Source: Streptomyces sp. GC420
Lineage (GTDB): Bacteria > Actinomycetota > Actinomycetes > Streptomycetales > Streptomycetaceae
Assembly: GCF_009916105.1 (NCBI RefSeq)
Contig: NZ_JAAAXQ010000031.1
Span: forward strand, 1 to 34,176
Direction: 5' to 3'
Length of the DNA: 34,176 nt
A program made the position numbers and the translations under genes. Below are positions 8,728-29,888 of the stretch, one piece after another (position 1 is the stretch's first letter; each line of letters starts with the position of its first letter). The notes beneath the pieces are model-generated. The model was not told the DNA's origin, made no database searches, and saw nothing but the letters and a program-made list of their open reading frames with translations.

Positions 8728-9948
8728 ATGCGTGTTCTGCTCGTGGGAGCGGGCGGTGTGGGCACCGCGATCACCCGTATCGCCGCCCGCCGTCCGTTCC
8801 TCGACCACATGGTCGTCGCCGACTACGACCTGTCCCGTGCCGAGGCGGCCGTGGCCGCCCTGGGAGAGTCGGGGAGCCGGTTCAGTGCCGCCAGGATCGA
8901 CGCCTCCGACGAGGCCGCGGTCACCGCGCTGCTGGCCGGTGAGCGGTGCGACGTACTCCTCAACGCCACCGATCCCCGATTCGTCATGCCGCTGTTCGAG
9001 GCGGCGCTTGCGGCCGGGGCCCACTACATGGACATGGCGATGTCACTGTCCCGTCCGCATCCGGAACGGCCCTACGAGGAGTGCGGGGTCAAGCTGGGCG
9101 ACGCCCAGTTCGAGCGCGCGGGCGACTGGGAGAGCGCGGGCCGGGTGGCTCTGGTCGGCATGGGCGTCGAACCCGGGATGTCCGACGTGTTCGCCCGCCA
9201 CGCCGCCGACGAACTCTTCGACGAGATCGAGGAGATCGGCGTCCGTGACGGCGCGAACCTCACCGTCGACGGCTACGACTTCGCGCCCTCCTTCAGCATC
9301 TGGACCACCATCGAGGAGTGCCTCAACCCGCCCGTCGTCTATGAGGCCGGGCGCGGCTGGTTCACCACCGAGCCCTTCAGCGAGCCGGAGGTCTTCGACT
9401 TCCCCGAGGGGATCGGCCCGGTCGAGTGCGTCAACGTGGAGCACGAGGAGGTGCTCCTGGTGCCCCGGTGGGTGGACGCGAAGCGCGTCACCTTCAAGTA
9501 CGGTCTGGGCGACGCCTTCATCAACAACCTGAAGGTGCTGCACCAGCTCGGTCTGGACCGTACGGAACGGGTGGCGGTGCCCGGTGCAGGCGGCACGGTC
9601 ATGGTCTCGCCGCGCGACGTGGTCGCGGCCTGCCTGCCTGACCCGGCGGGGCTCGGCGAGCGCATGCACGGCAAGACCTGCGCCGGCACCTGGGTGAAGG
9701 GCACCAAGGACGGCCGGCCGCGCGAGGTGTATCTGTACCACGTCGTCGACAACCAGTGGTCGATGCGGGAGTACGGCTCGCAGGCGGTGGTGTGGCAGAC
9801 CGCCGTCAACCCCGTGGTCGCCCTGGAACTGCTCGCCACCGGTGCCTGGTCGGGCACCGGCGTCCTCGGCCCCGAGGCGTTCCCCGCGCGGCCCTTCCTC
9901 GACCTGCTGACCGCGTACGGATCCCCGTGGGGCCTGCGTGAGCAGTGA
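8728..9948 (+). CDS. Saccharopine dehydrogenase family NAD(P)-dependent oxidoreductase
   Basis: A 406-residue protein starting MRVLLVGAGGVGTAITRIAA with a Rossmann dinucleotide-binding loop (GAGGVG, residues 7-12) and an acidic residue after the second strand (VVADYD), favouring NAD. Next come LLNATDPRFVMPLFEAALAA, GMGVEPGMSDVFARHAADEL and a C-terminal catalytic/dimer domain, in the usual order for LYS9-like enzymes. It could act in lysine catabolism or polyamine-related metabolism (carboxynorspermidine synthase is a relative), but no pathway partner adjoins it. Control by the divergent TetR at 7855-8571 is likely. Length and motifs look intact. Confidence 0.85.
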   Translation: MRVLLVGAGGVGTAITRIAARRPFLDHMVVADYDLSRAEAAVAALGESGSRFSAARIDASDEAAVTALLAGERCDVLLNATDPRFVMPLFEAALAAGAHYMDMAMSLSRPHPERPYEECGVKLGDAQFERAGDWESAGRVALVGMGVEPGMSDVFARHAADELFDEIEEIGVRDGANLTVDGYDFAPSFSIWTTIEECLNPPVVYEAGRGWFTTEPFSEPEVFDFPEGIGPVECVNVEHEEVLLVPRWVDAKRVTFKYGLGDAFINNLKVLHQLGLDRTERVAVPGAGGTVMVSPRDVVAACLPDPAGLGERMHGKTCAGTWVKGTKDGRPREVYLYHVVDNQWSMREYGSQAVVWQTAVNPVVALELLATGAWSGTGVLGPEAFPARPFLDLLTAYGSPWGLREQ

Positions 9949-10034
9949 CAACAGGTGTGGGGCGGGCCCAGTGGGTTACCCCGACAGGTAGTCCCCCGAC
10001 CGCTGGACAGGGGGCCTGCCGTTCCGGTGCAGCG

Positions 10035-10080
10035 GCCGTACCACTGCCGTGAGCCGTACCAGCCGTACCACTGCCGTGAG
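10035..10080. repeat. 19-bp direct repeat upstream of the P-type ATPase
   Basis: The 19-mer GCCGTACCACTGCCGTGAG occurs at 10035-10053 and 10062-10080, a 27-bp period. An extra CCGTACCA lies between them, and the last copy ends 12 bases before the ATPase ATG, running into its ribosome site. It may be a slippage duplication or a paired operator in the 5' leader. Confidence 0.7.
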
Positions 10081-10092
10081 GTGAGGACGCCG

Positions 10093-13000: not shown

Positions 13001-14961
13001 CGGCCGGGCAGGCGGCGCCGACCGCCGGCGTGGAGGCCAGGCTGACCGGACTCACCAGGGCCAGCATGCCGGTCGCGCTGGGCTCGGCCGCCGCGGTCTC
13101 GGCGGCGGGCCTGCTCCACGGCAGGTCGCCGGTACGCACCCTGTCCTCGGCCGTGAACCTCGCCGTGGCATCGGTACCGGAGGGCCTGCCGTTCCTGGTC
13201 GGCGCCGCGCAGATGGCGGCAGCCCGCAGGCTCGCCGACCGCGGGGCGCTGGTCCGCAATCCACGCACGATCGAGGCGCTGGGCCGCGCCGACGTGCTGT
13301 GCTTCGACAAGACGGGCACCCTCACCGAGGGCACACTGCGACTCGCCGCCGTCAGCGACGGGGACAGCGAACTGCCCGTCGACCGGCTGGACGACCGGTA
13401 CCGGACGGTGCTGGCCGCGGCGCTGCGGGCGACCCCGCCGGCCCGGGAGTCGGAGCCGCTGGCCCATCACACCGACCGGGCGGTGGCCGCCGGCGCCCGG
13501 CGCGCGCACGTCGCGGTACGCCACGGCGCCTCGCGCTGGCGGCGCACCGACGCGCTGCCGTTCGAGCCCTTGCGGGCCTACCACGCCACGGCCGGGCAGA
13601 CCTCGCACGGCATGCTGCTCAGCGTCAAGGGTGCGCCGGAAAACGTGCTGGAACGCTGCACGGGCCGTCGCGCCGACGGCTCGACCACCCCTCTCGACGC
13701 GGCCGCCCGCCAGGAACTCACGGACAAGGCACAAGAGTTGGCCGGCGCGGGACGCCGGGTGCTCGCGGTGGCCGAGCGTACGGCGGCCGAGGGCGAGGAG
13801 CTGACCGACGAGTCGGTGCGCGACCTGGTGCTGCTGGGCTTCCTCGCGCTGTCGGACCCGGTGCGGGCCGGGGCGGCGCCCGCCGCGGCGCGGCTGCTGA
13901 AGGCCGGGGTGCAGATCGTGATGCTCACGGGCGACCACCCGGCGACGGCCGACGCGATCGCCACCACCGTCCACCGGGACGCGGACCAGAAGGTCTGCAC
14001 CGGCGCCGAGCTGGACGAACTGGACGACGACCGGCTCGACGCGCTGCTGCCCACCGTGGATGTGATCGCCCGGTGCAGCCCGCACCACAAGGTGCGGATC
14101 GTCCAGGCGTACCAGCGGCTCGGCCGGGTCGTGGCGATGACCGGGGACGGCGCGAACGACGCGCCGGCGATCAGGCTCGCGGACGTCGGGATCGCGCTCG
14201 GAAGACGCGGCACACCGGCGGCGACCGCCGCCGCGGACCTGGTGGTGAGCGACGACCGGCTGGAGACCATCATCTCGGCCCTGATGGAGGGCCGCGCCAT
14301 GTGGGTCTCGGTGCGTTCCGCGCTGGCCATCCTGATCGGCGGGAACTTCGGCGAGATCACCTTCAACGTGCTGGCCGCCATTCTGACCGGGGGCACTCCG
14401 CTGGGCGCGCGCCAGCTGATGCTGGTGAACCTCCTGACGGACCTCGCCCCCGCGCTGGCGATCGCCGTACGGGAACCGACCGCGAACGGCGGGGAACGGC
14501 TGCTGCGGGAGGGGCCGGACCGTTCGCTCGGGGAGGCGCTGCGCCGCGAGATGCTGCTGCGCGGCGCCACCACCGCGCTCGGCGCGGGCCTGGCCTGGGG
14601 CGCCGCCCGGTTCACCGGGCGGGCACGGCGGGCGGGGACGGTCGCGCTGGTCGCCCTCGTGGGCACGCAGCTCGCGCAGACGCTGTTCACCGGTGTCCGC
14701 GACCGCAAGGTGCTGCTGACCTCCCTGGGTTCGGCGGCGGCGCTGGCGATGGTGGTCCAGACGCCGGGTCTGAGCGGCTTCTTCGGCTGCACGCCGCTCG
14801 GGCCCGTGGGCTGGGGCATCGCGGTGGGCGCGATCGCCTCGGCGATGGCGCTCGGCGCCGCGCTGAACCCGGTGGCGCGCCGGCTGCTTCCCCGGGAGGG
14901 GCTGCCGGGGACGGAGTCCGGGGACGCGGAGCTCTCCCGCGCGGACGTCCCGTCGGACTGA
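10093..14961 (+). CDS. Very large P-type cation-translocating ATPase (CtpH/CtpI-like)
   Basis: About 1622 residues, close in size to the giant mycobacterial CtpH/CtpI pumps. The C-terminal half is a complete P-type ATPase. It has a first membrane pair around residues 800-850, the TGES dephosphorylation loop (near 915), M4 with PEGLP, the phosphorylation site CFDKTGTLTEG (Asp about 1072), KGAPE in the N domain, MLTGDHPAT, and the GDGANDAPA hinge followed by M5-M10. PEGLP rather than CPC argues against a P1B heavy-metal pump and for a P2-like cation pump; the ion is unknown. The N-terminal half looks like a decayed second ATPase copy: MDTVVLDESALR stands where DKTGT would be. It carries a Lys/Gly-rich low-complexity insert (residues about 421-455). 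The start has a GAGG ribosome site. Confidence 0.88.
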   Translation: MSLLSLLRAPARVPAPPVPGPLVDGVLTGMRAVVDLTWRAAGVPRRAVWSRPGRCYIAVHGVHGVHAPRAERIARRVEEALERHPGVTWARVNGPAGHVTVELGPTPARPHELIAMIERAEALLEEHEEAEEAGEWCREPHHPCEGPRTRQSVSGLAADALGLGIATAARIAPWAPLPHEVGTVASALQRHPRVREAAARWTKGPEQAESLLPVIGALVQGAATHGGGIVLDVVQRLAQWREATAHQDAWERAEPGLVRGPEHAAAGPVLADRPCPPPKDSADRYGDRALAAGALAGAATTPFAGPRRGLAVALTGLPKAPEAGREGFASTLGRALALRGVVTMDRGVLRRLGQMDTVVLDESALRGEGYELADLGLVRKAEAERCAERAFSLFDPQAPGEIRRDGEWVLGPLERLDPSTSDGKGGKGGRSGKGSKRGKDGKDGKKGPGGRKAAARLRRRGAEQVLGLTERGRLRAVASVTAQSARGAEAVVAAARRSGVRIVLATGTPDENADGVAAARVPASGAGPGGVRVTPAAQEALARAGGTGVDTGTGDTASGHAGTGYASAAHTGAAAGTAAGRKTPGGGPGSAAPDAGPGDGGPRHRFADATVPGGDRLVASVRELQAGGAVVLLVSGNRRALVAADCGVGVHPEGKPPAWGAHLLVGADLATAGLLVDAVGVAAQVDRESVMLASGGSGVGAVAALQAAPARASSRSAAAGNAAGTAAFCLAVWRARQLLSRPPDETERALPWHLMPVPRVLEHLDASEEGLSDQDAKERKDRADGSAPQDGPRATTLPVAFAEELANPLTPVLAAGAALAAAVGSRTDAGLVAAVTGVSALAGGVQRVRTDRALAELFERSAIGARVRRGGRERLITAGDLVPGDIVLLRPEDVVPADCRVLEAEGVEVDESSLTGESLPVSKNPAPVVASQIADRRSMLYEGTSVAAGRGTAVVVATGAATEVGRSLAAAGQAAPTAGVEARLTGLTRASMPVALGSAAAVSAAGLLHGRSPVRTLSSAVNLAVASVPEGLPFLVGAAQMAAARRLADRGALVRNPRTIEALGRADVLCFDKTGTLTEGTLRLAAVSDGDSELPVDRLDDRYRTVLAAALRATPPARESEPLAHHTDRAVAAGARRAHVAVRHGASRWRRTDALPFEPLRAYHATAGQTSHGMLLSVKGAPENVLERCTGRRADGSTTPLDAAARQELTDKAQELAGAGRRVLAVAERTAAEGEELTDESVRDLVLLGFLALSDPVRAGAAPAAARLLKAGVQIVMLTGDHPATADAIATTVHRDADQKVCTGAELDELDDDRLDALLPTVDVIARCSPHHKVRIVQAYQRLGRVVAMTGDGANDAPAIRLADVGIALGRRGTPAATAAADLVVSDDRLETIISALMEGRAMWVSVRSALAILIGGNFGEITFNVLAAILTGGTPLGARQLMLVNLLTDLAPALAIAVREPTANGGERLLREGPDRSLGEALRREMLLRGATTALGAGLAWGAARFTGRARRAGTVALVALVGTQLAQTLFTGVRDRKVLLTSLGSAAALAMVVQTPGLSGFFGCTPLGPVGWGIAVGAIASAMALGAALNPVARRLLPREGLPGTESGDAELSRADVPSD

Positions 14962-18854: not shown

Positions 18855-20377
18855 GTGGGTGAGGCTCTGCGGGGACGATCGGCGGTCGTGGCCCGTACTC
18901 CGTTGGACCTGGACGAGTTGGTCGAGCACTGGACGCTGCTGAAGGACGAGCAGGCGCTCGTGTCCGGCAAGCGTGGTGCGACACGACTGGGCTTCGCCGT
19001 GCTGCTGAAGTTCTACACGCAGTACGGCCGGTTTCCCCGGAACCGGGCAGAGCTGCCCGGTGAGGCCGTGGAGTTCGTCGCCCGTCAGGTGCAGGTTCCC
19101 GCCTCGGAGTTGGATTCCTACGACTGGACGGGCCGCACGGTCGAGTACCACCGCGCGCAGGTCCGGGAGCACCTCGGCTTCCGCGAGTGCAGCGTCGCGG
19201 ACGCGGAGAAGCTGACCGCGTATCTGGCCGAGCATGTCGCGCACAAGGAACGCAGGCCCGAGCAGGTCCGGGTGGAACTGCTGGCGCGCTGCCGCGCCGA
19301 GAGCATCGAGCCGCCCACGCTGGGCCGGTGCGACCGCATCGTGGCGGCCGCCCTGCGAGCGGCCGAGGAGTCGCTGACCGCCCTGATCTCCTCGCGGCTG
19401 ACCGTGGAAAGCATCGAGCGGATCATGGCTCTGGTGGCCGGCGCCGACCAGGACGACGCCGGACCCGCGGGCGTGGGTACGGAGGGCGAGGACGCGCCGC
19501 CGGTGCTGGCGAAGGTCAAGGAAGCGCCGGGCAACGTGAGCCTGGAGACGATGCTCACCGAGATCGACAAGCTCCTGTCGGTACGGGCGATCGGTCTGCC
19601 ACCGGATCTGTTCTTCGACGTCGCGCCGAAGGTCGTGACGGGCTGGCGGGCGCGGGCCGCGGTGGAGTCGCCTTCCCACCTGCGCACGCACCCGGTGCCG
19701 CTGCGGGTGACCTTGCTGGCCGCGCTGCTGCATGAGCGGGAGCGGGAGATCACCGACACGCTGGTGGAGCTGCTGATCTCCACGGTGCACCGGATCGGGG
19801 CGAGGGCGGAGAAGAAGGTCACCGAGCAGCTGGTCAACGCGTTCAAGAAGGTGTCGGGCAAGGAGAACATCCTCTTCAAGCTCGCCGAGGCGTCGCTCGG
19901 CACTCCGGAGGGCACGGTCCGGCAGGTCGATGCTGGAGGTCGGCCGCGCAGAAGACCATCTTCGTGGCCCGCTACCTGCGGCTGCGGGACCTCCAGCGGG
20001 AGATCGAGGAGGGCCTGAACGTGGTGGAGTCCTCCAACGGCGCGAACTCCGTGATCGCCTACGGCAAGGGCGGGGAGATCGCCTCGAACCGGCGCGACGA
20101 GCAGGAGATGTTCGTGCTGTGCCTGCGGATTCTGCAATCGGCCCTGGTCTACGTGAACACCCTGATGCTCCAGGACGTCCTCGGCGAACCGGAGTGGGCC
20201 GAGCTTCTCACGCCCGCCGACCGGCGCGGCCTGACCCCGCTGTTCTGGTCCCACGTGCGGCCGTACGGGGAGGTCAACCTCGACATGGACACCCGCCTCA
20301 ACCTTGCCGCGGTCAGACTTCCGGGTCCGCGAGTTGCGACGGACGCCGCCGACCAGCAGCCATCCGGGCATGCGTAG
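18855..20377 (+). pseudogene. tnpA: Tn3-family transposase, large internal deletion and frameshift
   Basis: The first 357 or so codons (to GTPEGTVRQV, about 19927) are the N-terminal DNA-binding region of a Tn3 transposase (DELVEHWTLLKDEQALVSGK, ATRLGFAVLLKFYTQYGRFP). From about 19930 the sequence resumes in other frames as the C-terminal end (LEVGR, then QKTIFVARYLRLRDLQREIE, GLNVVESSNGANSVIAYGKG, LTPLFWSHVRPYGEVNLDMD). Intact proteins have about 1000 residues, so roughly 500, including both catalytic Asp residues, are gone. The final Glu of the triad may survive in GLNVVES. A further two-base loss near 19949 separates LEVGR from QKTIF. The product is inactive, though the N-terminal fragment could still bind the terminal repeats. 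Confidence 0.88.
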
Positions 20378-20509
20378 GCGTAGTCGGCCAGACCGGTCCC
20401 CACGAAGTATCGCCGAGCTCGTTCACCCGTGTGCAAGACGCCGTCCTCGGACGGCTGATTCCGTGCCAAGGGCTGCGACCGCCCCGGAGGTCGTTCACTT
20501 CTCAGTGCT

Positions 20510-21457
20510 TCACTTGGATTCGATCCGTCCCATGGGGGCGACGCTATCCGACAAGGCCTTCTGCGCTGCCGTCCAGCTGGTGTCCTCGATGCCGAGTGCG
20601 TGGCGAAGGTAGGCCCAGGTGATCCGTTGGATCAGGGCCACGCGCTCGGGGTTCTCGTCCGTCGTCTCCCGGACTTCGTAGCCGGCGATTCCGCCGAGGG
20701 AGTGCTCCGCCCCGAACAGAGTGAGCAGGCTCTTGCGCCCCGGGCTCAGGTGGTACGGGTCGGTGAGCCACTCCGGCCCTCTGACGGACAGCGGTAGCTC
20801 GTCCTTATCCCCTGCGACCACGAGGGTCGGCGTGGTCATGTGCGCGAAGTCCGGTCCCTTCAACCACGGAAGGTTCTCGGCCGCGAAGGGAGTCAGGTCG
20901 GCTCCGCCCCTGCCGGCCGTAGCAAGCAGCACGCCCGCCTTGATCCGCGAGTCGGACAGGTCCTCTGCATTCTTGCTCACCGGATCGAGGACGCGCAGGC
21001 CCAGCAGATTGCCCGCCGTCTGGCCGCCGAAGGAGTGTCCGGCTGCGGCAATGCGGCTTCGATCCAGGCGCCCGCTGAGACCGGGAACAGCGGCCTCCAG
21101 CAGATCAAGCTGGTCAAGGATGCGCTTCATGTCCTCGACACGGAAGCGCCAGAGCCGCGGTGTGCGGAGATCGTCCTGGGGAAGACCCACGGTCCTGGAG
21201 TCGAGATGGGTGGGCTGAATCACCACGAAACCGTGAGCAGCCCAGAAGTCAGCCAGAGGACCGTAGCTGTTCAACGACGACCCGAAACCGTGCGAGAAGA
21301 CGATGATCGGCAGTTCGCTCCCGGTTGTCGGCGCGGAAATTCTCACCCGCAGGCCCTCACTGCGGCCCGGTGCTTCCAGCACTACCGGCTTCACCGAGAC
21401 GATGAGGGCGGGGGCGGTGATGGCCACGTCCGTGGCCGCCGCGTCTGATGCAGTCAT
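20510..21457 (-). CDS. Alpha/beta hydrolase (PAF-acetylhydrolase/chlorophyllase-like), transposon cargo
   Basis: A 315-residue hydrolase with oxyanion loop FSHGFGSS (residues 55-61), nucleophile elbow GHSFGG (Ser142), an acid in VVAGDKDE (Asp217 or Asp219) and His252 in GAEHSLGG. The triad is complete. It resembles the PAF-AH/chlorophyllase-type serine hydrolases that act on esters. There is no signal peptide from the chosen ATG (21457), which has a GGAAG ribosome site; a GTG at 21511 would add 18 residues. It is transcribed divergently from the MerR gene across a dyad, so it is the likely regulated cargo. The substrate is unknown; detoxification of an ester is a guess. The C-terminus has no obvious damage. 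Confidence 0.85.
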   Translation of the reverse strand: MTASDAAATDVAITAPALIVSVKPVVLEAPGRSEGLRVRISAPTTGSELPIIVFSHGFGSSLNSYGPLADFWAAHGFVVIQPTHLDSRTVGLPQDDLRTPRLWRFRVEDMKRILDQLDLLEAAVPGLSGRLDRSRIAAAGHSFGGQTAGNLLGLRVLDPVSKNAEDLSDSRIKAGVLLATAGRGGADLTPFAAENLPWLKGPDFAHMTTPTLVVAGDKDELPLSVRGPEWLTDPYHLSPGRKSLLTLFGAEHSLGGIAGYEVRETTDENPERVALIQRITWAYLRHALGIEDTSWTAAQKALSDSVAPMGRIESK

Positions 21458-21566
21458 GGGTAGATCTTCCTTCGCGTTTCCGATGGGGAAGCTGTCGAAC
21501 AAGCTGGTCACGGTCGCGTCCTTCGCCTTGGCGGAGGGGGTGAGCCGTCGCGAGATACGCTAAAAC

Positions 21567-21582
21567 CTGACGCTGACGTCAG
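21567..21582. promoter_or_regulatory. MerR-type operator between hydrolase and MerR genes
   Basis: CTGACG (21567-21572), a CTGA spacer and CGTCAG (21577-21582) form a dyad containing TGACGTCA, midway between the divergent starts at 21457 and 21622. MerR regulators bind such dyads inside their promoters, which fits control of both genes. Confidence 0.6.
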
Positions 21583-21621
21583 AGGCAAGAAGTGTTGCCC
21601 GCCTCACATCGGAGAGACATG

Positions 21622-21993
21622 ATGCGTATCGGCGAGCTCGCCACCAGGACAGGCGTCAGCGTTCGGGCGCTGCGCTACTACGAGGAACAGAACCTGCTCG
21701 CCTCGGAACGCAGCCCCAGCGGCCAGCGGCAGTACCCGGACAGCGCGGTCGACCGTGTCCAGCTGATCCAGCAGTTGTACGCCGCCGGGCTGCCGAGCAA
21801 GTCGATCGCGGATCTGCTGCCGTGTGTCGTGAACGGTGAGGCCACGCCAGAGCTGATCGACCGGCTTTCGGCGGAACGGGATCGCATCGACAGCCGGATC
21901 GGCGATTTGGTGGGCGCCCGGGACAGGCTGGGCACCGTGATTGCCGCCGCCACCGCGAACTGGCGAACAGGCCAACACTGCCGACTCCAGTAA
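21622..21993 (+). CDS. MerR family transcriptional regulator, transposon cargo
   Basis: About 123 residues. The N-terminal winged helix is canonical: MRIGELATRTGVSVRALRYY, then EEQNLLASERSPSGQRQYPD. A dimerisation coiled coil follows (ELIDRLSAERDRIDSRIGDL). The C-terminus is short (GTVIAAATANWRTGQHCRLQ) with a single Cys and no metal-binding cluster, so it is not a MerR/CueR-type metal sensor; a small organic ligand is more likely. ATG 21622 has GGAGAG five bases upstream; ATG 21619 is one codon earlier. It probably autoregulates and controls the divergent hydrolase. Confidence 0.85.
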   Translation: MRIGELATRTGVSVRALRYYEEQNLLASERSPSGQRQYPDSAVDRVQLIQQLYAAGLPSKSIADLLPCVVNGEATPELIDRLSAERDRIDSRIGDLVGARDRLGTVIAAATANWRTGQHCRLQ

Positions 21994-22172
21994 TCAGCAT
22001 GCCGGGCTCTGCGGCTGAGGACGGAGACGCCCAGCAATCGACCGATTGATGAGCAAGATCGATAAGGGGCGGCGCGCGGCCGGATCGGCGCCGGATCATG
22101 CACATAAAACGGTGTCAGAAAGTCGATGTGCTCGAGAACTTGAGAAGCACCCTTTTCTGTACGATCTGGCAG

Positions 22173-22862
22173 GTGCAGCAACCTCAGGACGACGACGCCG
22201 CCGATCTCCTCGCCCCCGTTCCGGCCCTACGGACCGGCAGCCTCGTGGGATACGCACGCGTGTCCACCAAGGAGCAGCTGCTCGACCGGCAGATCCACGC
22301 ACTCACCGAAGCGGGATGCATCCGGATCTTCGCCGACAAGAAGTCCGGCAAGAACGCCGAACGCGAGGAGCTACGGAAGGCCCTCGACTACCTGCGCGAG
22401 GGCGACACTCTCGTCGTCCCGTCACTGGACCGGCTCGGCCGCTCCATCCAGGACCTCATCGCGATCGTGTCCGGCCTGCTCAAGCGCGGCGTCGGCTTCA
22501 CCTCGCTGCACGAGGCACTCGACACGACCACGCCCGGCGGGCGCCTGGTCTTCCACGTGTTCGCGGCGCTGGCGGAGTTCATCCGCGAACTCATCGTGCA
22601 GGGCACCAACGAGGGCCTGGACGCCGCCCGCGCCCGCGGCGCCCGACTCGGCCGCCCGCCGGCGATGACGGAGGAGCAGGTACGTCACGCCCGCGACCTG
22701 CTCGCCCGCCCGGAGAACACCGTCACCTCGATCGCGAAGCTCCTCGGCGTCTCCAGGAACACGATCTACAACTACGTGCCTGAGCTGAAGGGCGGTCGCC
22801 TCGCACTCGCTGAGGCGACGAGCACGCTGGAACTGCCCCAACCCACCAGGTCTGAGGACTGA
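22173..22862 (+). CDS. tnpR: Serine recombinase, Tn3-type resolvase with C-terminal HTH
   Basis: The catalytic domain is clear: LVGYARVSTKEQLLDRQIHA with the nucleophile Ser in ARVS, then FADKKSGKNAEREELRKALD, LVVPSLDRLGRSIQDL and FAALAEFIRELIVQGTNEGL. The C-terminal HTH reads TVTSIAKLLGVSRNTIYNYV. It would resolve cointegrates at a res site, expected in the AT-richer DNA at about 22100-22170 (imperfect GTGCT/AGCAC arms), though I could not define subsites. GTG 22173 is chosen because the upstream codons (from ATG 22098) look like promoter/res sequence; neither start has a good ribosome site. A tail of about 30 residues follows the HTH, and the stop codon lies within the right inverted repeat. 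The protein appears intact. Confidence 0.85.
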   Translation: MQQPQDDDAADLLAPVPALRTGSLVGYARVSTKEQLLDRQIHALTEAGCIRIFADKKSGKNAEREELRKALDYLREGDTLVVPSLDRLGRSIQDLIAIVSGLLKRGVGFTSLHEALDTTTPGGRLVFHVFAALAEFIRELIVQGTNEGLDAARARGARLGRPPAMTEEQVRHARDLLARPENTVTSIAKLLGVSRNTIYNYVPELKGGRLALAEATSTLELPQPTRSED

Positions 22863-22906: not shown

Positions 22907-23263
22907 AATGGGGCAGGACATCCCGGGCCCTTCGCCCGATCACCACACCGAGCTCCACACCCAGTGCGCATCCTGCCCGTCGGCCGACACCAGATGTCCT
23001 CGTCGGCACCCACGACGACATGGCCGCTGTTCCGCACGGAGAACTCCGGCACGGCAGGGTCGGGACGCTCCAACTCCCGTACGCGAAAGGCATAGCCGGG
23101 ACCGACGGCAACCATCTTGTCCGGCCGGACGATCAGTGGTGCGTAGGAAACTTCGTCCAGCCTGTGACGCTCACCGGTATCAGCACCGGCCCGGTCCCGC
23201 CAGCCGTCGCCGAACGCGACCAGCGCCCCGACGTCCGCCCAGTCGGACGGTGCTGAGCTTCAC
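22907..23263 (-). pseudogene. Fumarylacetoacetate hydrolase (FAH) family remnant cut by the transposon
   Basis: Read from GTG 23263 the sequence starts VKLSTVRLG, typical of FAH-family N-termini. In another frame it continues WADVGALVAFGDGWRDRAG, then SYAPLIVRPDKMVAVGPGYA and RVRELERPDPAVPEFSVRNS. A third frame gives VELGVVIGRRARDV, the conserved metal-ligand Glu region of the catalytic fold, immediately before the right transposon end. The rest of the catalytic domain (NDVSxRD onward) is absent, also from the left flank of the element. Deletion, frameshifts and truncation make it a relic. Its GTG overlaps the stop of the sensor kinase gene in a GTGA, suggesting it was once the last gene of that operon. 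Confidence 0.72.
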
Positions 23264-24912
23264 CGGTGAAGCTCCTTCAGTAGTGGTGTGGGGGCTTCGT
23301 CGGCAAAGGGCCGTCCGCTGACGCCGGAAGCCGGGGCGGACAGCGACGGACGGGCACGTCCTTCGAGGTGCTCCGTGGACGCGGCGGTGGGCCGATACGG
23401 CAGAAGCAAGCGGAAGGTGCAGCCGTCCCCCTGCCGGGTGTCGAGCTCCAGACGCCCGCCGTTGGCCTCCGCGGCGCTGGAAGCGATCGCCAACCCCAGA
23501 CCGGAACCAGCCGCAGCCCGCTGGGCGGAGCCGGCGCGGTAGAAGCGTTCGAACACTCGCCGCGCGTCCGACGCGGCGAGGCCGGTCCCGTCATCGGCCA
23601 CCTCGACGGCACAGACAAGAGTGCCGGGGGTGAGCGGAGGGTTGGCACTGGTACGGCCCTCCCCGTCCGTGCCCTGGCCGTTCGGGCGGATGCGCAGGGT
23701 GCCGACGCGCACCCGGACGTGTGTCCCGGGCGGGGTGTGGACGCACGCGTTGGTGAGCAGATTGAACAGGATCTGAGTCAGCTGATGCGGATCACCGAGG
23801 GCATCGACGACGTCCAGCTCGGCCTCATGGGGACCGCCCTCGGTGTCGGCGAGGGCGCCCAGGCCGATGCTGCGGTCGGGGTACTGCACGGCGACGGCGG
23901 CAATGCTGTCCGCGGCAAGAGACAGCAGGTCGACCGGCTGCCACTGCATCGCGGGCACGTCCCCCAGCTTGGCCAGCTGGGACAGGCTCTCGACGAGGCG
24001 ACTCATCCGTTCCGCGTTCCGCACGATCAGCTGCTGCGCCTCGTGGCGTCGCTCCGGACTCATCTCCGGTTCCTGTACGAGGAGTTCGGCGAAGCCCTGC
24101 AAGGAGGTGAGAGGCGTGCGCAGTTCATGACCGGCGTCCGCCAGAAAGTGACGCAGTCGCTGTTCGGACGCCTCTGCGCGGTGCAACGCGGTGCGCAGCC
24201 GGTCGAGCATGGTGTTCAGGGCACGGCTGAGGTGGCCGACCTCGGTGACCACATGCCGGTCCGGAACGCGCAGCTCCAACTCGCCGCCGGCAATGCGCCG
24301 GGCGATGCGCTCGACCCCGACCAGCGGCCGCAGCCCCACTCGCACGACGAGGCTGCCGAAGAGGATGACGCCGGCGGCGACAGCCACCCCCACGGCGAGG
24401 CTGAACCACAGTATCCTGGCGGTCGCGTCGTCCACCTCTTTGAGAGGCAGCGCCACCACCACCCTCGTGCCGTCGGCGCCGGACCGGGCGATCACCCGCC
24501 AGGTGCTGCCCCCGTCGGTCGCGGCGAGCGTGACGGGTCGGCCGTTCTGCAGGCCGAGCGCCGACTCCGACCAGGGCAACCGCGGCCCGGCACCACCCTC
24601 GTCGCCACTCAGCGACCTGGCCAGCCGGTGTCCGCCGCTGTCGTAGAAGTACACCCGGTAGTCCGAGGGAAGGACGTTGTTCCTGCCGCCCTCCCCCGCT
24701 GTCGTCCGTCCGTCGACGACGTCCTGGTCGAGCTGGGCCACCGGTTGGAAACGGCTGAGCCGACCGTCGACCTGGTCCGTGAGCCAGGTGTGGAGCAGGG
24801 CGAGCCCCGCCGCCTGGCAGAGCAGAACCGCCGAGGTGGCCAGCAGAGTGGCGCCGAGAACCAACCGCGCCCGCAGAGAGCGCGGTTTCAGTCGCCTCAG
24901 CCGCTGCCTCAC
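23260..24912 (-). CDS. HAMP-domain sensor histidine kinase
   Basis: A 550-residue membrane kinase. TM1 lies at about 17-40 (LVLGATLLATSAVLLCQAAG), then an extracytoplasmic sensor of about 125 residues. TM2 (residues 168-190) and HAMP (VRVGLRPLVGVERIARRIAG) follow. HisKA has phospho-acceptor His262 in FLADAGHELRTPLTSLQGF. The ATPase domain has its N box (ILFNLLTNACVH), G1 (VADDGTGLA), F box (VFERFYRAG) and G2 (GSGLGLAIA). All catalytic boxes look intact. The GTG start overlaps the stop of the response regulator by 4 bp, so the two are translationally coupled. The final 40 residues are a Pro/Ala-rich extension. The sensed signal is unknown; context suggests it relates to the VTC/CotH genes upstream. 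Confidence 0.93.
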   Translation of the reverse strand: MRQRLRRLKPRSLRARLVLGATLLATSAVLLCQAAGLALLHTWLTDQVDGRLSRFQPVAQLDQDVVDGRTTAGEGGRNNVLPSDYRVYFYDSGGHRLARSLSGDEGGAGPRLPWSESALGLQNGRPVTLAATDGGSTWRVIARSGADGTRVVVALPLKEVDDATARILWFSLAVGVAVAAGVILFGSLVVRVGLRPLVGVERIARRIAGGELELRVPDRHVVTEVGHLSRALNTMLDRLRTALHRAEASEQRLRHFLADAGHELRTPLTSLQGFAELLVQEPEMSPERRHEAQQLIVRNAERMSRLVESLSQLAKLGDVPAMQWQPVDLLSLAADSIAAVAVQYPDRSIGLGALADTEGGPHEAELDVVDALGDPHQLTQILFNLLTNACVHTPPGTHVRVRVGTLRIRPNGQGTDGEGRTSANPPLTPGTLVCAVEVADDGTGLAASDARRVFERFYRAGSAQRAAAGSGLGLAIASSAAEANGGRLELDTRQGDGCTFRLLLPYRPTAASTEHLEGRARPSLSAPASGVSGRPFADEAPTPLLKELHR

Positions 24913-25655
24913 AACGCCGCCGCTCCCGGGCCGGGACGGGCGGCCCGCAGACAGTAGCCGACACCGCGGATCGTCTGGATGAGCTGTGGCTCGAACCGGT
25001 CTATCTTGCGCCGCAGATTGCGTACGTAGGTATCGACGATGCGGGCGTCTCCCGCGAAGTCGTAGTGCCAGACCTCGGACAGAATCTCCTTCTTGCCCAC
25101 GACGCGTTCCGGCTGCGCCAGCAAACAGACCAACAGCCGGAACTCCGTGGGCGACAGCTGGATCGGCAGGCCCGCCCGCCACACCTCGTGCGTCTGCTCG
25201 TCCAGTACCAGATCGGCGTACCGCAGGGGCGGCCGCCTGGCGCCGTCACCCCGTGGCATGTCACTACGCCGCAGGATTGCGCGGATCCGCAGCAGGACCT
25301 CTTGCACATGGAAGGGCTTGGTGACGTAGTCGTCCCCGCCGGAGCTGAGACCGATGATGCGGTCCTCGACGTCGGTGCGGGCCGTCAGGAACAGCACGGG
25401 TGTGTAGACGCCCTCCGCGCGCAGGTGACGGGTCACCGCGAAGCCGTCGATGTCCGGGAGACCCACGTCCAGCAGGATCAGATCCGGCTGGCTGCGGCCC
25501 GCCTCGAACATGGCCGTCCGGCCGGTGTCGGCGGTGTTGACCGCGTATCCGGCGGCGTGCAGAGCGGACGTGAGCAGGGTGCGGATGCTGGGGTCGTCCT
25601 CGACCACGAGCACGTTGTGTCTGGGCGGCGCGGGCACTGACGGCGCGACGGGCAT
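24909..25655 (-). CDS. OmpR/PhoB-family response regulator
   Basis: A 248-residue regulator. The receiver domain has the acidic pair in VVEDD, phospho-acceptor Asp63 (LLDVGLPD), Thr in FLTAR and Lys113 (VTKPF). The C-terminal winged helix is of the OmpR type (IQLSPTEFRLLVCLLAQPER; VDTYVRNLRRKIDRFEP; IRGVGYCLR). It is coupled to the sensor kinase through a GTGA overlap. It starts 92 bp after the CotH-type gene, beyond a strong stem-loop, so it may have its own promoter or depend on read-through. A likely target is the VTC-led operon itself. Confidence 0.93.
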   Translation of the reverse strand: MPVAPSVPAPPRHNVLVVEDDPSIRTLLTSALHAAGYAVNTADTGRTAMFEAGRSQPDLILLDVGLPDIDGFAVTRHLRAEGVYTPVLFLTARTDVEDRIIGLSSGGDDYVTKPFHVQEVLLRIRAILRRSDMPRGDGARRPPLRYADLVLDEQTHEVWRAGLPIQLSPTEFRLLVCLLAQPERVVGKKEILSEVWHYDFAGDARIVDTYVRNLRRKIDRFEPQLIQTIRGVGYCLRAARPGPGAAAL

Positions 25656-25694
25656 GGAGTTTCCTTCGCTGGTGCGGGGTTGGATGTGACCGAA

Positions 25695-25740
25695 CGCCCC
25701 GGACGGCGTCCCACGGGGGAAGGAACTGCCGTCCGGGGCG
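25695..25740 (-). terminator. Stem-loop between the CotH gene and the two-component genes
   Basis: CGCCCCGGACGG (25695-25706) and CCGTCCGGGGCG (25729-25740) form a perfect 12-bp stem with a 22-base loop, starting 7 bases past the CotH stop. It should end or attenuate the VTC-DUF4956-CotH transcript ahead of the response regulator. Confidence 0.72.
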
Positions 25741-25747
25741 CCGGGGA

Positions 25748-27484
25748 TCAGCCGGTCACCTCCTTGTTCTTGCTCAGCGCCTCAGTGCGCTCGGTGACCG
25801 TCTTGCGCAGCTTTTCGACGGCGGAGTCCAGCTCTTTGCCGTCGGCACCGGCCTTCCCCGCCTGTTCGGCGATGTCATTCAGCGTCTTCAGAGCGTTCCC
25901 AGAGCCGTAGAACTTCTCGTACAGCTCCTTGTAGGCCTTCTTGTAGACGGGATCGAAGGTGTCCGAGTCCAGGAAGCGTTCCTTCAAGGGGTGGCCCATG
26001 AGGCTGCCACGCCCGCCGCCTTCGCCTCGGCCGCCCTGACCGCCCGGCATTCCCTCCGGCAGGTCTTCCGGTATCCCCGACGGCATGCCCTCCGGCAGGC
26101 CTTCCGGTATCCCCGACGGCATTCCCTCGGGTATCCCCGACGGCGCTCCAGAGGGTATGTTCTGCGCCCCCTGGCCACCTGTGCCCTGGCCGCTTTGGCC
26201 GCTTCGCCCGTTGGCAGCGCCTCCGCCACCACCGAGAGCGCCGCCCATGCCCATGTCGTCGTCCGGGCCCGACGTCGCGTCGCCGCTGAAGGTGAGGTTG
26301 TAGTCCCACCCGAGGACCGAGAACTTCTTGGTGTCCAGGTCGTACCACAACAGGTAGTTCTTGCCCGGTCCGGCCATGTCGTCGAAGTTCATCAGCAGGT
26401 TCTGCGCCGCGAGGTACGTGGCCAGCGACTCGACGTCCACGTGCTGGTCGAGTTCCTTCTCGAACTCCTCGTCCGATGCCTGGTTGGCCCACTTGATGAG
26501 CTTCATGACCGGCTCCAGGTCCTGGCTGCCGACCTTGTTGAGCTGTTCGAACGAGTCCTCGTAGTCGGTCGGATCGTCACCCTTGTACTCGAAGTTACCG
26601 CTGGCCCGCGCCTTGTACAGGACTCCGTTGCCGTCGCCGATGGACTCGGCGTACTCCGTGTCCGGGCTCTCGACCATCAGCCGGGTGGCGACCGGACGGC
26701 TGTTCACCTTCACCGACGTGAAGGCGTACCGCTCGTTCTTCCAGCCGGTGGTGTCCGTCAGGCTCAGCGAGAGTGCCTCGTTCACCGGTACCTGGCCGTT
26801 GCTGCCGGGGCGCAGCGAGATCTCACGCTCGCCCTGGTAGGCGCGGCCTTCGACGAACTCGTCCACCTTGATGAGCCACGGCAGTTCCTCGGGCTTCTTC
26901 TCGGAGAGGTTGTACTGCGTGATCCCGCCCATGGCACCGCCGGGACCGCCGGGACCGCCGCCGTTGTCCTGGCCGCGGTCCCGGCCCCCGGTCCCGTCGT
27001 CCTGCGACTGGTCCGGGGCGCCCTGCGCGGCTCCTTCGGGCATGGTCCGGCCGCCACCGGGCATGCCCTGGCTGGTTCCGCGCAGGGACATCAGGGTGGA
27101 GTTCCCTTTCAGGCGGATCCCGACGTCCTCGAGATACACGCCGTCGATGGTGAGGTCGGCCTCGATGTACTCCTTGGTGCCGTCCTCCCGGAACTCCTTC
27201 ATCATCTTGTCGAACTCGGTCTGTTCGTACTCGAGTTGGACCAAGTGGGACACCGACGTGTCGTACAGGTCGACCGTGCCCTGCACGTCGTCCGTGATCG
27301 TGTCGGCCTCCACGCTGGAAGACGAGGTGACATACGGCGATATGCGGGCGTCGCCAAAGAAATAGACCATCGTCGCCAGACCCGCGCACAGGGCCGCAGC
27401 CGGCTTCCAGTGGTGCCGCAACCGTACGGGCACTCGGTCCCGCAGACGTCGCGGCCTGCGTACCGTCGCGCCGTCGCTCATCAC
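25748..27484 (-). CDS. Membrane-anchored CotH-type kinase
   Basis: A 578-residue protein. A basic cytoplasmic head is followed by one membrane anchor (residues about 28-45, AAALCAGLATMVYFFGD), then an extracytoplasmic CotH kinase domain. Marks of the family are VGIRLKGNST (near 121-130), LYKARASGNFEY, NLLMNFDDMAGPGKNYLLWY (near 360-375) and VLGWDYNLTFSG (near 391), with the conserved Asp residues present. CotH in Bacillus phosphorylates spore-coat proteins. Two low-complexity inserts interrupt the domain: a Gly/Pro-rich block (about 143-190) and a PSGIPEGMP repeat block (about 442-480). The last 60 residues are charged and helical. Its ATG overlaps the DUF4956 stop (ATGA). The substrate is unknown. 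Confidence 0.88.
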   Translation of the reverse strand: MMSDGATVRRPRRLRDRVPVRLRHHWKPAAALCAGLATMVYFFGDARISPYVTSSSSVEADTITDDVQGTVDLYDTSVSHLVQLEYEQTEFDKMMKEFREDGTKEYIEADLTIDGVYLEDVGIRLKGNSTLMSLRGTSQGMPGGGRTMPEGAAQGAPDQSQDDGTGGRDRGQDNGGGPGGPGGAMGGITQYNLSEKKPEELPWLIKVDEFVEGRAYQGEREISLRPGSNGQVPVNEALSLSLTDTTGWKNERYAFTSVKVNSRPVATRLMVESPDTEYAESIGDGNGVLYKARASGNFEYKGDDPTDYEDSFEQLNKVGSQDLEPVMKLIKWANQASDEEFEKELDQHVDVESLATYLAAQNLLMNFDDMAGPGKNYLLWYDLDTKKFSVLGWDYNLTFSGDATSGPDDDMGMGGALGGGGGAANGRSGQSGQGTGGQGAQNIPSGAPSGIPEGMPSGIPEGLPEGMPSGIPEDLPEGMPGGQGGRGEGGGRGSLMGHPLKERFLDSDTFDPVYKKAYKELYEKFYGSGNALKTLNDIAEQAGKAGADGKELDSAVEKLRKTVTERTEALSKNKEVTG

Positions 27485-28158
27485 AGGTCAGTCGTGTCGT
27501 AACCGGTCAGGACGGTCACCCGCTGACCGGAGGTGCGTTCCTGCAGCGCGGTCACCAGGTCGCTGGGTTCGGTGCCCTTCTTCATGCGCACCGTGTAGAA
27601 CACCTCGGTCAGCGCCCCGCCCCGGATCGTCTCCGTGCTCACCAGCTCGAACTCACTGGTGTAGCGGATGAGGACGTCGCGGATGTCCGAGGAGTAGTCC
27701 TCGCCGGCCGGAACCTGGACCTTGACGACCTGGCGCTGAACGTTGAGCGCGAACCAGTCGAACTTGTACATCACGACGATGACGGCGCTGATCACCACCG
27801 CGGCAACCGCGGCGAGGGTGTAGAAACGGGAGCCGGCGGCCATGCCCACCGCCATGGCCAGGAAGATGAAGCCGACGTCCCTGGTCTCCTTGACCGCGTT
27901 CCGGAACCGGACCACGGACAGTGCTCCGACCAGCGAGAACGCCCGCGCCAGGTTGGACCCGACGACCAGCATGATCATCGCGACGATCATGCCGACGATG
28001 ACGAGGGTCTGAACGTAGGACTGGCTGTAGGAGACGTTGCGGTGCGTGTACCGGTAGACGTAGCCGATCATCGTGCTGAGGATGAACGACAGCGCCATGG
28101 CCGCGACCACGTCGGTGACGCTGAACGTACCGCTGAGTTCCTGCAGATCGAAGTTCAC
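27481..28158 (-). CDS. DUF4956 membrane protein
   Basis: A 225-residue protein with four predicted membrane helices in its N-terminal half (VVAAMALSFILSTMIGYVY; LVIVGMIVAMIMLVVGSNLA; FIFLAMAVGMAAGSRFYTL; AAVVISAVIVVMYKFDWFAL). A conserved loop (FSLVGALSVVRFRNAVKETR) follows the second helix, and a soluble alpha/beta C-terminal domain completes it. This is the DUF4956 pattern. The family's activity is unknown, but it recurs beside VTC-domain polyphosphate polymerases and CotH proteins. Both ends overlap neighbours by 4 bp (GTGA with VTC, ATGA with CotH), implying fixed stoichiometry and probably a physical complex. Confidence 0.9.
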   Translation of the reverse strand: MNFDLQELSGTFSVTDVVAAMALSFILSTMIGYVYRYTHRNVSYSQSYVQTLVIVGMIVAMIMLVVGSNLARAFSLVGALSVVRFRNAVKETRDVGFIFLAMAVGMAAGSRFYTLAAVAAVVISAVIVVMYKFDWFALNVQRQVVKVQVPAGEDYSSDIRDVLIRYTSEFELVSTETIRGGALTEVFYTVRMKKGTEPSDLVTALQERTSGQRVTVLTGYDTTDL

Positions 28159-29078
28159 TGTGCTCCTGCTTTCAAGGGCGCCTCGGGCGCCGACCGCTGC
28201 TGGGGCAGCGACTGCTCGGTGGGGGTGGGCGGCGGACAGTCCACCTCGTTGAGGTGGAAGACGGATCGGGGCGCCAGCCCGAACGCCTCGATGGACTGCA
28301 CGTACTTGGAGACCCTGATGAGGCTGAGGTTCCGGCGTGCGGCAAGGTCCGTGATCCAGTGCGGGGTTCGCTCGTTGACCTTGATCTCCATCACCGACAT
28401 GTGAGGTGGGATGGTGAACCGGTTCTCGGGGGTCGCGATACCGAAGTGGAAGTCCCGGTCCCGGCCGCGGATGCGCCGGTCGAAGGTCACCCGCAGTCCG
28501 GTGTCCGCGTGTCGACCGACCAGTGCCTCGCGCTGGTAGCCGGTGATCGCGGTAGGCTGCAGGTTGAGCCGTATGACCAGTTCGAGCACCTCGTGGATGA
28601 AGGCACGTTCCTTCGGCGAGTGCTCCACCAGCTCACGGCCGTCGCACAGCTGCCGGGCGGCACCGTAAGGGAGAGTGATGCGGCGCTTCTGCGTGACCCG
28701 GTTGACGCGTTGCTTGATCTCCACGCAGACCGGGGACTCGTCTGTGACGCCGTCCAGGTCCCCGTAGTGGCGGATGCGCAGCTTGCGCCGGAACTTCAGG
28801 CCCTCGATCTTCTCCCAGTAGAAGCGCAGTTGCGGGGTGTCGTAGTAGAGACTCCACACGCCGTAACCGCCGGCTGGACTGTTCAGGTCACGGTCCATCC
28901 GCTCGGCCAGCTCGTCCCGGATCTCGGCCGCCTCCTCGACCGGCACGAGGTACTTCAGCTCGAACCGGTTGAACGCGTGCAGCCTGCTGGCCACGTGCAA
29001 CGGCTGTTCCTCCGCCGGATCTTGGTCCTCCTCCCGGCTCGGCGACTTCCGCCGTGTGGTCACCGGTAGTGCCACCAT
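28155..29078 (-). CDS. VTC-domain polyphosphate polymerase
   Basis: About 307 residues, almost entirely a VTC (triphosphate tunnel) domain: FNRFELKYLVP, FRRKLRIRHYG with the basic RxRxR strand, CVEIKQRVNRVTQKRR with an ExK pair, VTFDRRIRGRD, and SVMEIKVNERTPHW, ending RVSKYVQSIEAFGLAP. The tunnel Lys/Arg/Glu residues expected from yeast Vtc4 appear present, so catalysis of polyphosphate from ATP is plausible. No membrane segment is seen; DUF4956 would supply the membrane part. An AAGGAGG site lies 3 bases before ATG 29078 and 6 bases before an in-frame GTG at 29075; an upstream ATG at 29120 is less likely. It is the first gene of the operon. Confidence 0.9.
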   Translation of the reverse strand: MVALPVTTRRKSPSREEDQDPAEEQPLHVASRLHAFNRFELKYLVPVEEAAEIRDELAERMDRDLNSPAGGYGVWSLYYDTPQLRFYWEKIEGLKFRRKLRIRHYGDLDGVTDESPVCVEIKQRVNRVTQKRRITLPYGAARQLCDGRELVEHSPKERAFIHEVLELVIRLNLQPTAITGYQREALVGRHADTGLRVTFDRRIRGRDRDFHFGIATPENRFTIPPHMSVMEIKVNERTPHWITDLAARRNLSLIRVSKYVQSIEAFGLAPRSVFHLNEVDCPPPTPTEQSLPQQRSAPEAPLKAGAQ

Positions 29079-29888
29079 GTGCCTCCTTACATCCTGTGGC
29101 CCGGTCGGGCGACGCATCACACGAAACCGGTGGGATGTGAGAAGCAGCTGAGAATTGCGAGGTAATTCCAGGAGTATTCAAGATGGCCAGAAAGCGAACT
29201 GTGCGCGTTGACAAGCAATCGCAGTGCGGACATTTGACGCACTTGGGATGCGGAGCGCCGCGACCGCAGCGGCACATCGCCCAACGCTTGTCAGAGCCCT
29301 CGTAGACCGCGGAGGAGAAGGCGACCTGCCCCCGAGCGGCATACATGCCCCAGACGCGGCCGGTGAAGGAGGCGCAGGTGCCGGAGGTCAGATGGCGGCG
29401 CCCTGCCCGACGCCGCCGCGCACCGTTTCATCGCCGCGCAGCAGAGCTGGAACCAGCCCTCCCAGGCCCCGGCCGCCCCCTCAGCGCGAATGGCCCCGGT
29501 GGGGGCCCGTCTCACGGCGCGCCCCAGGCTGAGCCAGTAACCCCGTGCCCGCGGCCGTGAGCCCTCCGGTACGACGTGATCGGAGCGCGCCGGCAGAACG
29601 TCCCGGGCATGGTGACCGTGACTCCGCAGGAGGCCGGCGGCCCCCGAAGGTCTGTCCATGGAGTCCCGGGACAGCATCGGGGAAGCACGGACCGATCGGA
29701 GATCAGCAGAGGTCCTGTCGCCGCCCGCCGCCCGCGTTGTCGGCGGGCCCGCACCGCCTGCGACCTGTACCAAGCTGCTCTCTGCCGGTCGTCTGCGCAG
29801 GATGCGGTGTCGCCACGGGTGGCCGCCCGCAGAGGGGGCCGGGCCCACCGCGCCCCGGGTCAGGGGGACTGGCCTTCCGCGAGCGGGG
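29079..29888. other. 810-bp region without a convincing gene; probable promoter of the VTC operon
   Basis: The part nearest the VTC gene (about 29130-29240) is lower in GC and should hold the operon promoter. AATT occurs at 29153 and 29164, an 11-bp period that could be an OmpR-type half-site pair. From 29250 to 29858 all six frames show poor third-position bias or read as Arg/Pro-rich shadows. One short coding-like run near 29404-29490 (plus, HRFIAAQQSWNQPSQAPAAP) is unrecognised. I see nothing else I can support. Confidence 0.5.

Follow-up and report, generated by a model that had tools for sequence, protein, structure and literature searches.

The 34,176-bp stretch of DNA analysed here (the window) is the entire contig C244 of the draft genome of Streptomyces sp. 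GC420 (8.59 Mb in 854 contigs). It carries, side by side on the minus strand, genes for a VTC-type polyphosphate polymerase, a DUF4956 membrane protein and a CotH-family kinase, which make up the cassette discussed here, followed by a response regulator (RR) and a histidine kinase (HK). All five genes are present and intact, as a first-pass annotation of the sequence had described them, and each scores above its Pfam cut-off. NCBIfam models gave no name for any of the three cassette proteins. The features are listed below, with protein lengths and positions in amino acids (aa) and with pLDDT standing for the predicted local distance difference test score of a structure model.

29135-29200, minus strand: array of six units of 11 bp each, located 57-122 bp ahead of the VTC ATG; it resembles the PHO box in relatives and is degenerate in the window (5 mismatches)
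28155-29078, minus strand: VTC-type polyphosphate polymerase, 307 aa (PF09359, E 3.5e-46, 158.1 bits against a cut-off of 23)
27481-28158, minus strand: DUF4956 membrane protein, 225 aa (PF16316, E 1.4e-22, 80.7 bits)
25748-27484, minus strand: CotH-family kinase, 578 aa (PF08757, E 1.1e-29, 104.5 bits against a cut-off of 23.8)
26924-27073, minus strand: Gly/Pro-rich insert of CotH, aa 138-187 (pLDDT <50)
26000-26242, minus strand: CotH segment after the WDxN motif, aa 415-495, made of Pro/Gly/Ser/Met/Glu repeats (pLDDT <50)
25695-25740, minus strand: stem-loop between CotH and RR, with a perfect 13-bp stem (25740-25728 with 25707-25695) and a 20-nt loop; terminator-like, with no T run
24909-25655, minus strand: OmpR/PhoB-type response regulator (PF00072 and PF00486)
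23260-24912, minus strand: histidine kinase with HAMP, HisKA and HATPase domains; sensor region at about aa 41-171

The genes are tightly packed. Exact 4-bp overlaps had been claimed throughout, which holds for VTC/DUF4956 (GTGA, 28155-28158) and for RR/HK (GTGA at 24909-24912) but depends on the chosen start for DUF4956/CotH, where the overlap is 4 bp with the GTG start at 27484 and 1 bp with the adjacent in-frame ATG. In the related loci described next, with start codons picked by script, the gap is -4 between VTC and DUF4956 in 64/81 loci and between RR and HK in 44/52; between DUF4956 and CotH it is -4 in 56/78 and -1 in 8/78.

In public genomes, a search with the window VTC found 231 related places. 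The 80 most similar ones were kept and, with the window, make up 81 loci. Because the loci were chosen by similarity to the window VTC, the gene-order counts describe close relatives. The 80 comprise 62 Streptomyces loci, the window's nearest among them, together with 11 loci from genera that we take to belong to the Micromonosporaceae and 7 from genera that we take to be Streptosporangiaceae. DUF4956 lies directly after VTC on the same strand in 81/81 loci, and CotH is third in order in 78/81, the CotH match running into the contig end in the other three. VTC-DUF4956-CotH is a conserved cassette, and the neighbourhood extends far beyond this genome, as had been expected of it. Beyond the five genes, no neighbour family is common to more than 19/81 loci, some flanks being short.

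Co-occurrence was counted in genomes that were not picked by similarity, namely 198 of Actinomycetota, 295 of the genus and 14 controls. VTC was found in 20 of the 198 Actinomycetota genomes and DUF4956 in the identical 20, always adjoining VTC (hypergeometric p ~8e-28 over the 198 genomes, p-values ignoring relatedness). CotH occurs in 17, of which 16 fall within the VTC/DUF4956 set; it is near VTC-DUF4956 in 14 of these 16 and on a separate contig in G108 and G147. Cthe_2159 (PF14262), a carbohydrate-binding family, occurs in 8/198 genomes, seven of them within the 20, with G012 having Cthe_2159 without VTC. It adjoins DUF4956 in four genomes that lack CotH (G027, G066, G142 and G174) and in G186, and lies away from it in G031 and G113. 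All 20 VTC/DUF4956 genomes have CotH, Cthe_2159 or both.

In the genus, VTC was found in 78 genomes, DUF4956 in 70, CotH in 25 and Cthe_2159 in 14. DUF4956 is present in every CotH genome (25/25) and every Cthe_2159 genome (14/14), and CotH and Cthe_2159 occur together in none. VTC and DUF4956 coincide in 69 genomes; DUF4956 stands alone in one, G310, where the gene is at a contig edge. In 21/25 genomes CotH has VTC or DUF4956 nearby, and Cthe_2159 adjoins VTC in 13/14, the exception being G429. Among the controls, VTC and DUF4956 were found in the same three species, Bacteroides ihuae, Corynebacterium glutamicum and Methanosarcina acetivorans. CotH was found in C. glutamicum, M. acetivorans and Bacillus subtilis, and Cthe_2159 only in B. 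ihuae. B. subtilis is the sole control genome with CotH and without VTC, and its CotH uses ATP in spore-coat assembly (PMC7821199). CotH is not obligatory, many loci having a Cthe_2159 lipoprotein instead; CotH as the defining partner was rejected as too narrow for that reason.

The genus contains further VTC types. A second (L154, L155 and L157) has the order DUF4956-VTC-lipoprotein, the lipoprotein carrying a Cthe_2159 domain. A third (L163 and L168) has DUF4956-VTC with intact VTC residues and neither CotH nor Cthe_2159 adjoining, and third-type genomes form part of the 40 VTC genomes of the genus that lack both partners. At L142 (6744-8223, genome G099) VTC is broken by TAG and DUF4956 by TGA, while CotH is open.

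VTC has no hydrophobic segment and is predicted to be cytosolic. A phmmer search with the single VTC protein against solved structures returned repeat-driven chance matches only, and a family profile was needed. The profile, built from 33 bacterial VTC proteins with 16 invariant columns, ranks yeast VTC4 (3g3q, E 1.2e-25) far above VTC2 and VTC3. By alignment, window K42, R101, R103, K122, K131, R183 and R196 correspond to VTC4 K200, R264, R266, K281, K294, R361 and R373, and E231 and K258, counted by hand from the profile alignment, to E426 and K458. These are tunnel residues of VTC4. The counterparts are invariant in the 33 bacterial sequences except K42, which is kept in at least 90%, and K99 is invariant in bacterial VTC and Ala in VTC4. 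The yeast R264A/R266A/E426N mutant is catalytically impaired (PMC9911596). The retained residues suggest that the bacterial enzyme makes polyphosphate from ATP. It is not the genome's only polyphosphate enzyme, as PPK is also present.

The comparison with the eukaryotic VTC complex has limits. Both share the tunnel domain with equal catalytic residues and a membrane partner with conserved basic residues (PMC9911596). The bacterial protein, however, has neither an SPX domain nor a fused membrane domain (only the VTC domain in 307 aa), its membrane partner DUF4956 showed no relation to the VTC membrane domains, and an outward-facing kinase is added.

DUF4956 had been described as a four-helix protein, which the structure model (pLDDT 75.6) corrects to five helices (14-38, 46-65, 69-86, 92-109 and 113-132), followed from residue 143 by a C-terminal domain of predicted beta-alpha-beta-beta-alpha-beta, ACT/ferredoxin-like fold. 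Y35, R84 and R86 are invariant in 43 DUF4956 sequences of four phyla. With a cytosolic C-terminal domain and all five helices crossing the membrane, both conserved clusters would lie at the cytosolic helix ends, where a chain could enter from VTC. In the yeast channel, Lys and Arg line the upper portion facing the enzyme (PMC9911596). DUF4956 has a weak profile similarity to the MgtC family (PF02308, 24.4 bits, E 4e-5) and may share with it an ACT-like C-terminal domain. It falls under the MgtC cut-off of 31.4 bits, however, and differs in adjoining VTC in 20/20 genomes. The MgtC ACT-domain structure 2lqj ranks 17th in Foldseek (E 0.011), among many ferredoxin-like folds, and full-length MgtC is absent from the Foldseek and VIA-align matches listed for DUF4956.

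The CotH model (pLDDT 74.8) superposes on Bacillus cereus CotH 5jda with Z 30.4 over 337 aligned residues at 3.4 Å. A basic stretch at the N-terminus is followed by a membrane helix at aa 26-43, and a hydrophobic N-terminal segment is found in 75/78 relatives at a permissive threshold, which bears out the proposed membrane anchoring; several distant members look lipoprotein-like by eye. The catalytic Asp/Asn/Asp were matched to the kinase residues of PMC12189002 by alignment and spacing. D368, W393 and D394 are kept in 37/37 diverse CotH sequences and in 78/78 close relatives, and N376 in 33/37. D228 of B. subtilis CotH, the Gln mutant of which is inactive (PMC7821199), is taken to correspond to window D368. 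The first-pass annotation had judged both the VTC tunnel residues and two CotH Asp intact, and had named their loss as grounds for giving up its proposal; in the alignments they are indeed intact.

Spore CotH holds ATP between Tyr142 and Trp245 (PMC12189002). The Tyr142 position falls on window K291, which is Lys in 77/78 relatives, and the neighbouring Y290 is Tyr in 78/78, the ATP-site residue numbers being derived from one alignment and numbered with Trp at 245. These residues of the nucleotide site give an ambiguous picture of the donor, and we count them for neither side. The cassette CotH shares the kinase fold and catalytic Asp residues of the Bacillus spore-coat kinase. It differs in its membrane anchor (lipoprotein-like in distant members), its long Gly/Pro-rich inserts, its encoding with VTC-DUF4956 and the Lys at the Tyr142 position. 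Pro/Gly/Met repeats with Asp or Glu stand behind WDxN in the window protein (aa 402-495) and in those of L136 and L144; these segments could possibly bind cations or be autophosphorylated. CotH would carry out phosphotransfer on a surface protein or polymer.

A reading without export would keep the polyphosphate inside the cell, make DUF4956 a regulator akin to MgtC that has an ACT-type domain, and leave CotH as a co-expressed enzyme with a nucleotide donor. The below-cut-off MgtC score, the modelled resemblance of the C-terminal domain to ACT domains, MgtC's included, and the conserved adenine-stacking Trp of CotH are consistent with it. The linkage to outward-facing partners from two unrelated families instead favours a product used outside, and ATP is not expected at the location of CotH, which we count against this reading. 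We regard it as rather unlikely.

The DNA before VTC contains a block that is conserved among the window and its nearest relatives, whereas the DNA beyond it is not. The block consists of 11-bp units opening with a GTTCACC-like sequence, and GTTCACC is the PHO-box motif of Streptomyces coelicolor (PMC4415409). A GTTCACC direct repeat with a 4-bp spacer and at most 3 mismatches is found in 46/79 VTC upstreams (L079 and L111 were dropped) and in 12/457 upstreams of other genes of the same loci. First-order random sequences reach this level in about 2% of cases, other spacers of 0-11 give 3 to 10/79, and for sixty permuted units the median is 2 and the maximum 28. These repeat counts are not independent events, because the loci are related. 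The repeats occur in 39/61 Streptomyces and 7/11 Micromonosporaceae loci. Among further loci, 4/18 gene starts have such a repeat, and L154, of the DUF4956-VTC-Cthe_2159 type, has one with two mismatches upstream. RR-cluster upstreams show a weak excess (9/82). The window's own repeat, with 5 mismatches, is no better than shuffles, so the site may be weak or changed in this genome.

These repeats could instead be the operator of the local RR, with a signal other than phosphate. In Mycobacterium tuberculosis, PhoP likewise recognises direct repeats of 7 bp separated by a 4-bp spacer, so that the spacing is no proof of phosphate control (PMC4832192), and the local RR matches PhoB-type models best, far under their cut-offs. 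The unit, however, matches the S. coelicolor GTTCACC (PMC4415409), and the best repeats stand at loci where no local pair was detected (exact in L122, one mismatch in L115, L116, L118 and L120, two in L102 and L108), which indicates phosphate control. We consider a local operator improbable. Global PhoP probably controls the cassette family, with less confidence for the window itself. As in the Streptomyces Pho regulon, GTTCACC-type direct repeats with a 4-bp spacer precede VTC in relatives (PMC4415409), although the window copy is degenerate, and the cassette is a candidate member of the regulon. The envelope control suggested earlier finds no support, the PHO-box-like repeats pointing to phosphate. 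Neither CotH nor VTC appears in the main text of the Pho paper PMC7244524.

Behind CotH, the stem-loop was confirmed with a stem of 13 bp instead of the 12 first given. A perfect stem of at least 9 bp stands right behind CotH in 61/77 loci and in 0/77 equal stretches inside CotH; a simple sigma-70/terminator scan gave no matches. The RR and HK follow the cassette directly in 52/81 loci, RR alone does so in three, the pair is upstream on the same strand in two, and seven loci are cut off, L117 and L121 among them having the pair upstream. No same-strand pair is near in 17/81, one of which, L130, has an opposite-strand pair. The hydrophobic segments of the window HK are at aa 22-40 and 172-190.

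The five genes had been presented as one coupled system. The recurrence of the two-component pair, Bacillota included, upholds part of this; the lack of a nearby same-strand pair in 17/81 loci and its position behind a conserved stem do not. Because the gene order is kept, the pair is variable and a stem lies between, we treat VTC-DUF4956-CotH as the unit and RR-HK as a frequent, separable neighbour. The pair might even be a neighbour by descent only, which neither controls nor serves the cassette, and the 17 loci and the intervening stem-loop would fit this. Its position argues otherwise, being downstream in Streptomyces, yet upstream in L117, L121, L125 and L132, after CotH in the distant L144, and next to VTC-DUF4956 in L135, L139, L150, Paenibacillus (L174) and Acetoanaerobium (L175). 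The evidence for these distant loci consists of open reading frames and Pfam matches, the scan of L139 and L150 covering the RR alone. We consider descent alone quite improbable.

Other phyla were surveyed through plasmid records. A Planococcus plasmid has VTC-DUF4956-CotH with a glycosyltransferase of GT2/chitin-synthase type two genes further on, Pseudobutyrivibrio has the order GT2, CotH, VTC, DUF4956, GT4, and Deinococcus has CotH-VTC-DUF4956. In Paenibacillus a two-component pair is followed by VTC, DUF4956 and a Cthe_2159 protein, and in Acetoanaerobium by VTC, DUF4956 and a phospholipase-D-like protein (9732-11288) in the CotH/Cthe_2159 position. In streptococci and clostridia the genes for CotH, a polyphosphate polymerase and DUF4956 directly adjoin pelDEADAFG, and in bifidobacteria they adjoin pel genes (PMC7112168). 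A Clostridium perfringens locus holds VTC-domain, CotH and putative "glycosyl-" (the name is cut) genes together (PMC2879425). Two further mentions of "CotH" (PMC3881020 and PMC4193843) were false leads, and the stalk-cluster paper PMC8250860 was set aside, as its excerpt has CotH without VTC or DUF4956.

These neighbours raise the strongest rival to polyphosphate export, namely a role of the cassette in decorating or anchoring a surface polysaccharide, with VTC-DUF4956 supplying phosphate or chains and CotH or Cthe_2159 acting on or binding the polymer. The contiguity with pel genes in three bacterial groups (PMC7112168), the glycosyltransferases adjoining the set in Planococcus and Pseudobutyrivibrio, and the carbohydrate-binding nature of Cthe_2159 speak for it. 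So does the proximity to the cassette of a GT2 gene with a GtrA/DPMS domain in 16/81 loci and of a PMT_2/YkcB glycosyltransferase in 18/81, both mostly behind HK and each family being named from one member. Against it, no neighbour beyond the five genes reaches more than 19/81 loci within the flanks available, and a scan of 14 window open reading frames revealed no glycosyltransferase. In that scan the window cassette is not contiguous with pel genes either, its neighbours being a fumarylacetoacetate-hydrolase (FAH) remnant with Tn3-type genes on one side and a helix-turn-helix protein gene on the other. Compared with the Pel-locus accessory genes, which comprise the same three families, contiguous (PMC7112168), the window cassette has no adjoining pel, has an OmpR-type pair, and has relatives with PHO-box-like repeats. 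We hold a polysaccharide role to be possible, though on the unlikely side; it may also be a downstream use of the same mechanism. At L057 (16793-20915) GT2 and PMT_2/YkcB genes occur with a further response regulator behind, and L151 also has PMT_2/YkcB near the cassette.

We propose that VTC-DUF4956 is a phosphate-regulated polyphosphate synthase-translocase that serves a surface partner, and give this about an even chance of being right. The cytosolic tunnel enzyme VTC would build polyphosphate from ATP, and five-helix DUF4956, with its Arg pair at the predicted cytosolic face, would dock VTC and conduct the chain outward, much as in yeast a single VTC complex performs both synthesis and translocation. 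For synthesis with export, taken by itself, the balance is similarly level. The chain would be handed to an outward-facing partner, here CotH, elsewhere the carbohydrate-binding Cthe_2159 lipoprotein and sometimes both, and CotH would then phosphorylate its surface target. Transcription of VTC-DUF4956-CotH would answer phosphate via the PhoP-type direct repeats, with the adjacent RR/HK adding a local signal. A bolder version has VTC-DUF4956 exporting polyphosphate and CotH using it, instead of ATP, as phosphoryl donor, so that extracytoplasmic phosphorylation would have a dedicated, phosphate-regulated supply; the Lys at the adenine-stacking Tyr position would then be part of a changed donor site. 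We think this version unlikely, and polyphosphate as the CotH donor, judged as a separate point, is similarly doubtful.

Several observations weigh against the proposal. In the genus, DUF4956 was not found in 9/78 VTC genomes, 40/78 have neither CotH nor Cthe_2159, and among the 25 CotH genomes the gene lies at a distance from VTC or on a different replicon or contig in G275, G313 and G470 and on another contig in G306. Plasmids of Hymenobacter (L173) and Sinorhizobium (psymA, L176) carry DUF4956 with no VTC match by the bacterial VTC profile, which speaks against strict VTC-DUF4956 pairing, unless their VTC is too divergent to see. The Hymenobacter DUF4956 lies between a protein without a Pfam match and a TolC-family gene, the plasmid's CotH gene being elsewhere. 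Repeats with at most 3 mismatches are missing in 7/7 Streptosporangiaceae, in 22/61 Streptomyces and in the window itself. The conserved adenine-stacking W393, kept in 78/78, speaks for a nucleotide donor. The DUF4956 model is middling (predicted template modelling score 0.55), and profile search, Foldseek and VIA-align matched no solved structure to its membrane part. The sequences themselves give the tight pairing, intact residues, membrane anchoring, alternative partners and repeats in relatives, and from these we infer synthesis, export, the CotH-polyphosphate link and PhoP binding.

The surroundings of the cassette in the window include a Tn3-type element (18855-22862), in which DUF4158 and the Tn3 transposase DDE domain are in two adjacent frames, a broken transposase, and which also holds an alpha/beta hydrolase, a MerR regulator and a resolvase. 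That the cassette is a passenger of this mobile element was rejected, as the order is kept in 80 other loci and none of the neighbour families common to at least five loci looked like a transposase on inspection by eye. Between the element and HK lies the FAH-family remnant (22972-23241, residues 5-94 of 255), whose family is found behind HK in 19/81 loci. Further away, 10027-14961 encodes a 1644-aa open reading frame with an HMA domain and P-type cation ATPase domains.

In bacteria, VTC proteins carry the annotation of polyphosphate polymerase but have no known role. The single families and the three-gene association are already in print, the latter as unexplained accessory genes of Pel loci (PMC7112168). 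In the open-licence literature DUF4956 appeared in three papers, and no study was found on what the set does, the DUF4956 pairing, the alternation with Cthe_2159 or PHO boxes at the locus, in line with the earlier remark that the association recurs with its function not established. The PHO-box-like repeats before VTC are new relative to the literature searched. The counts can be turned into testable rules, that VTC comes with DUF4956, that the outward partner is CotH or Cthe_2159, and that the set is under phosphate control, and C. glutamicum, a tractable species, has all three families. If the proposal is true, VTC-DUF4956 would be a minimal two-protein counterpart of the multi-subunit yeast VTC complex, easy to reconstitute, and would suggest how an outward-facing bacterial kinase gets its phosphate where ATP is lacking.

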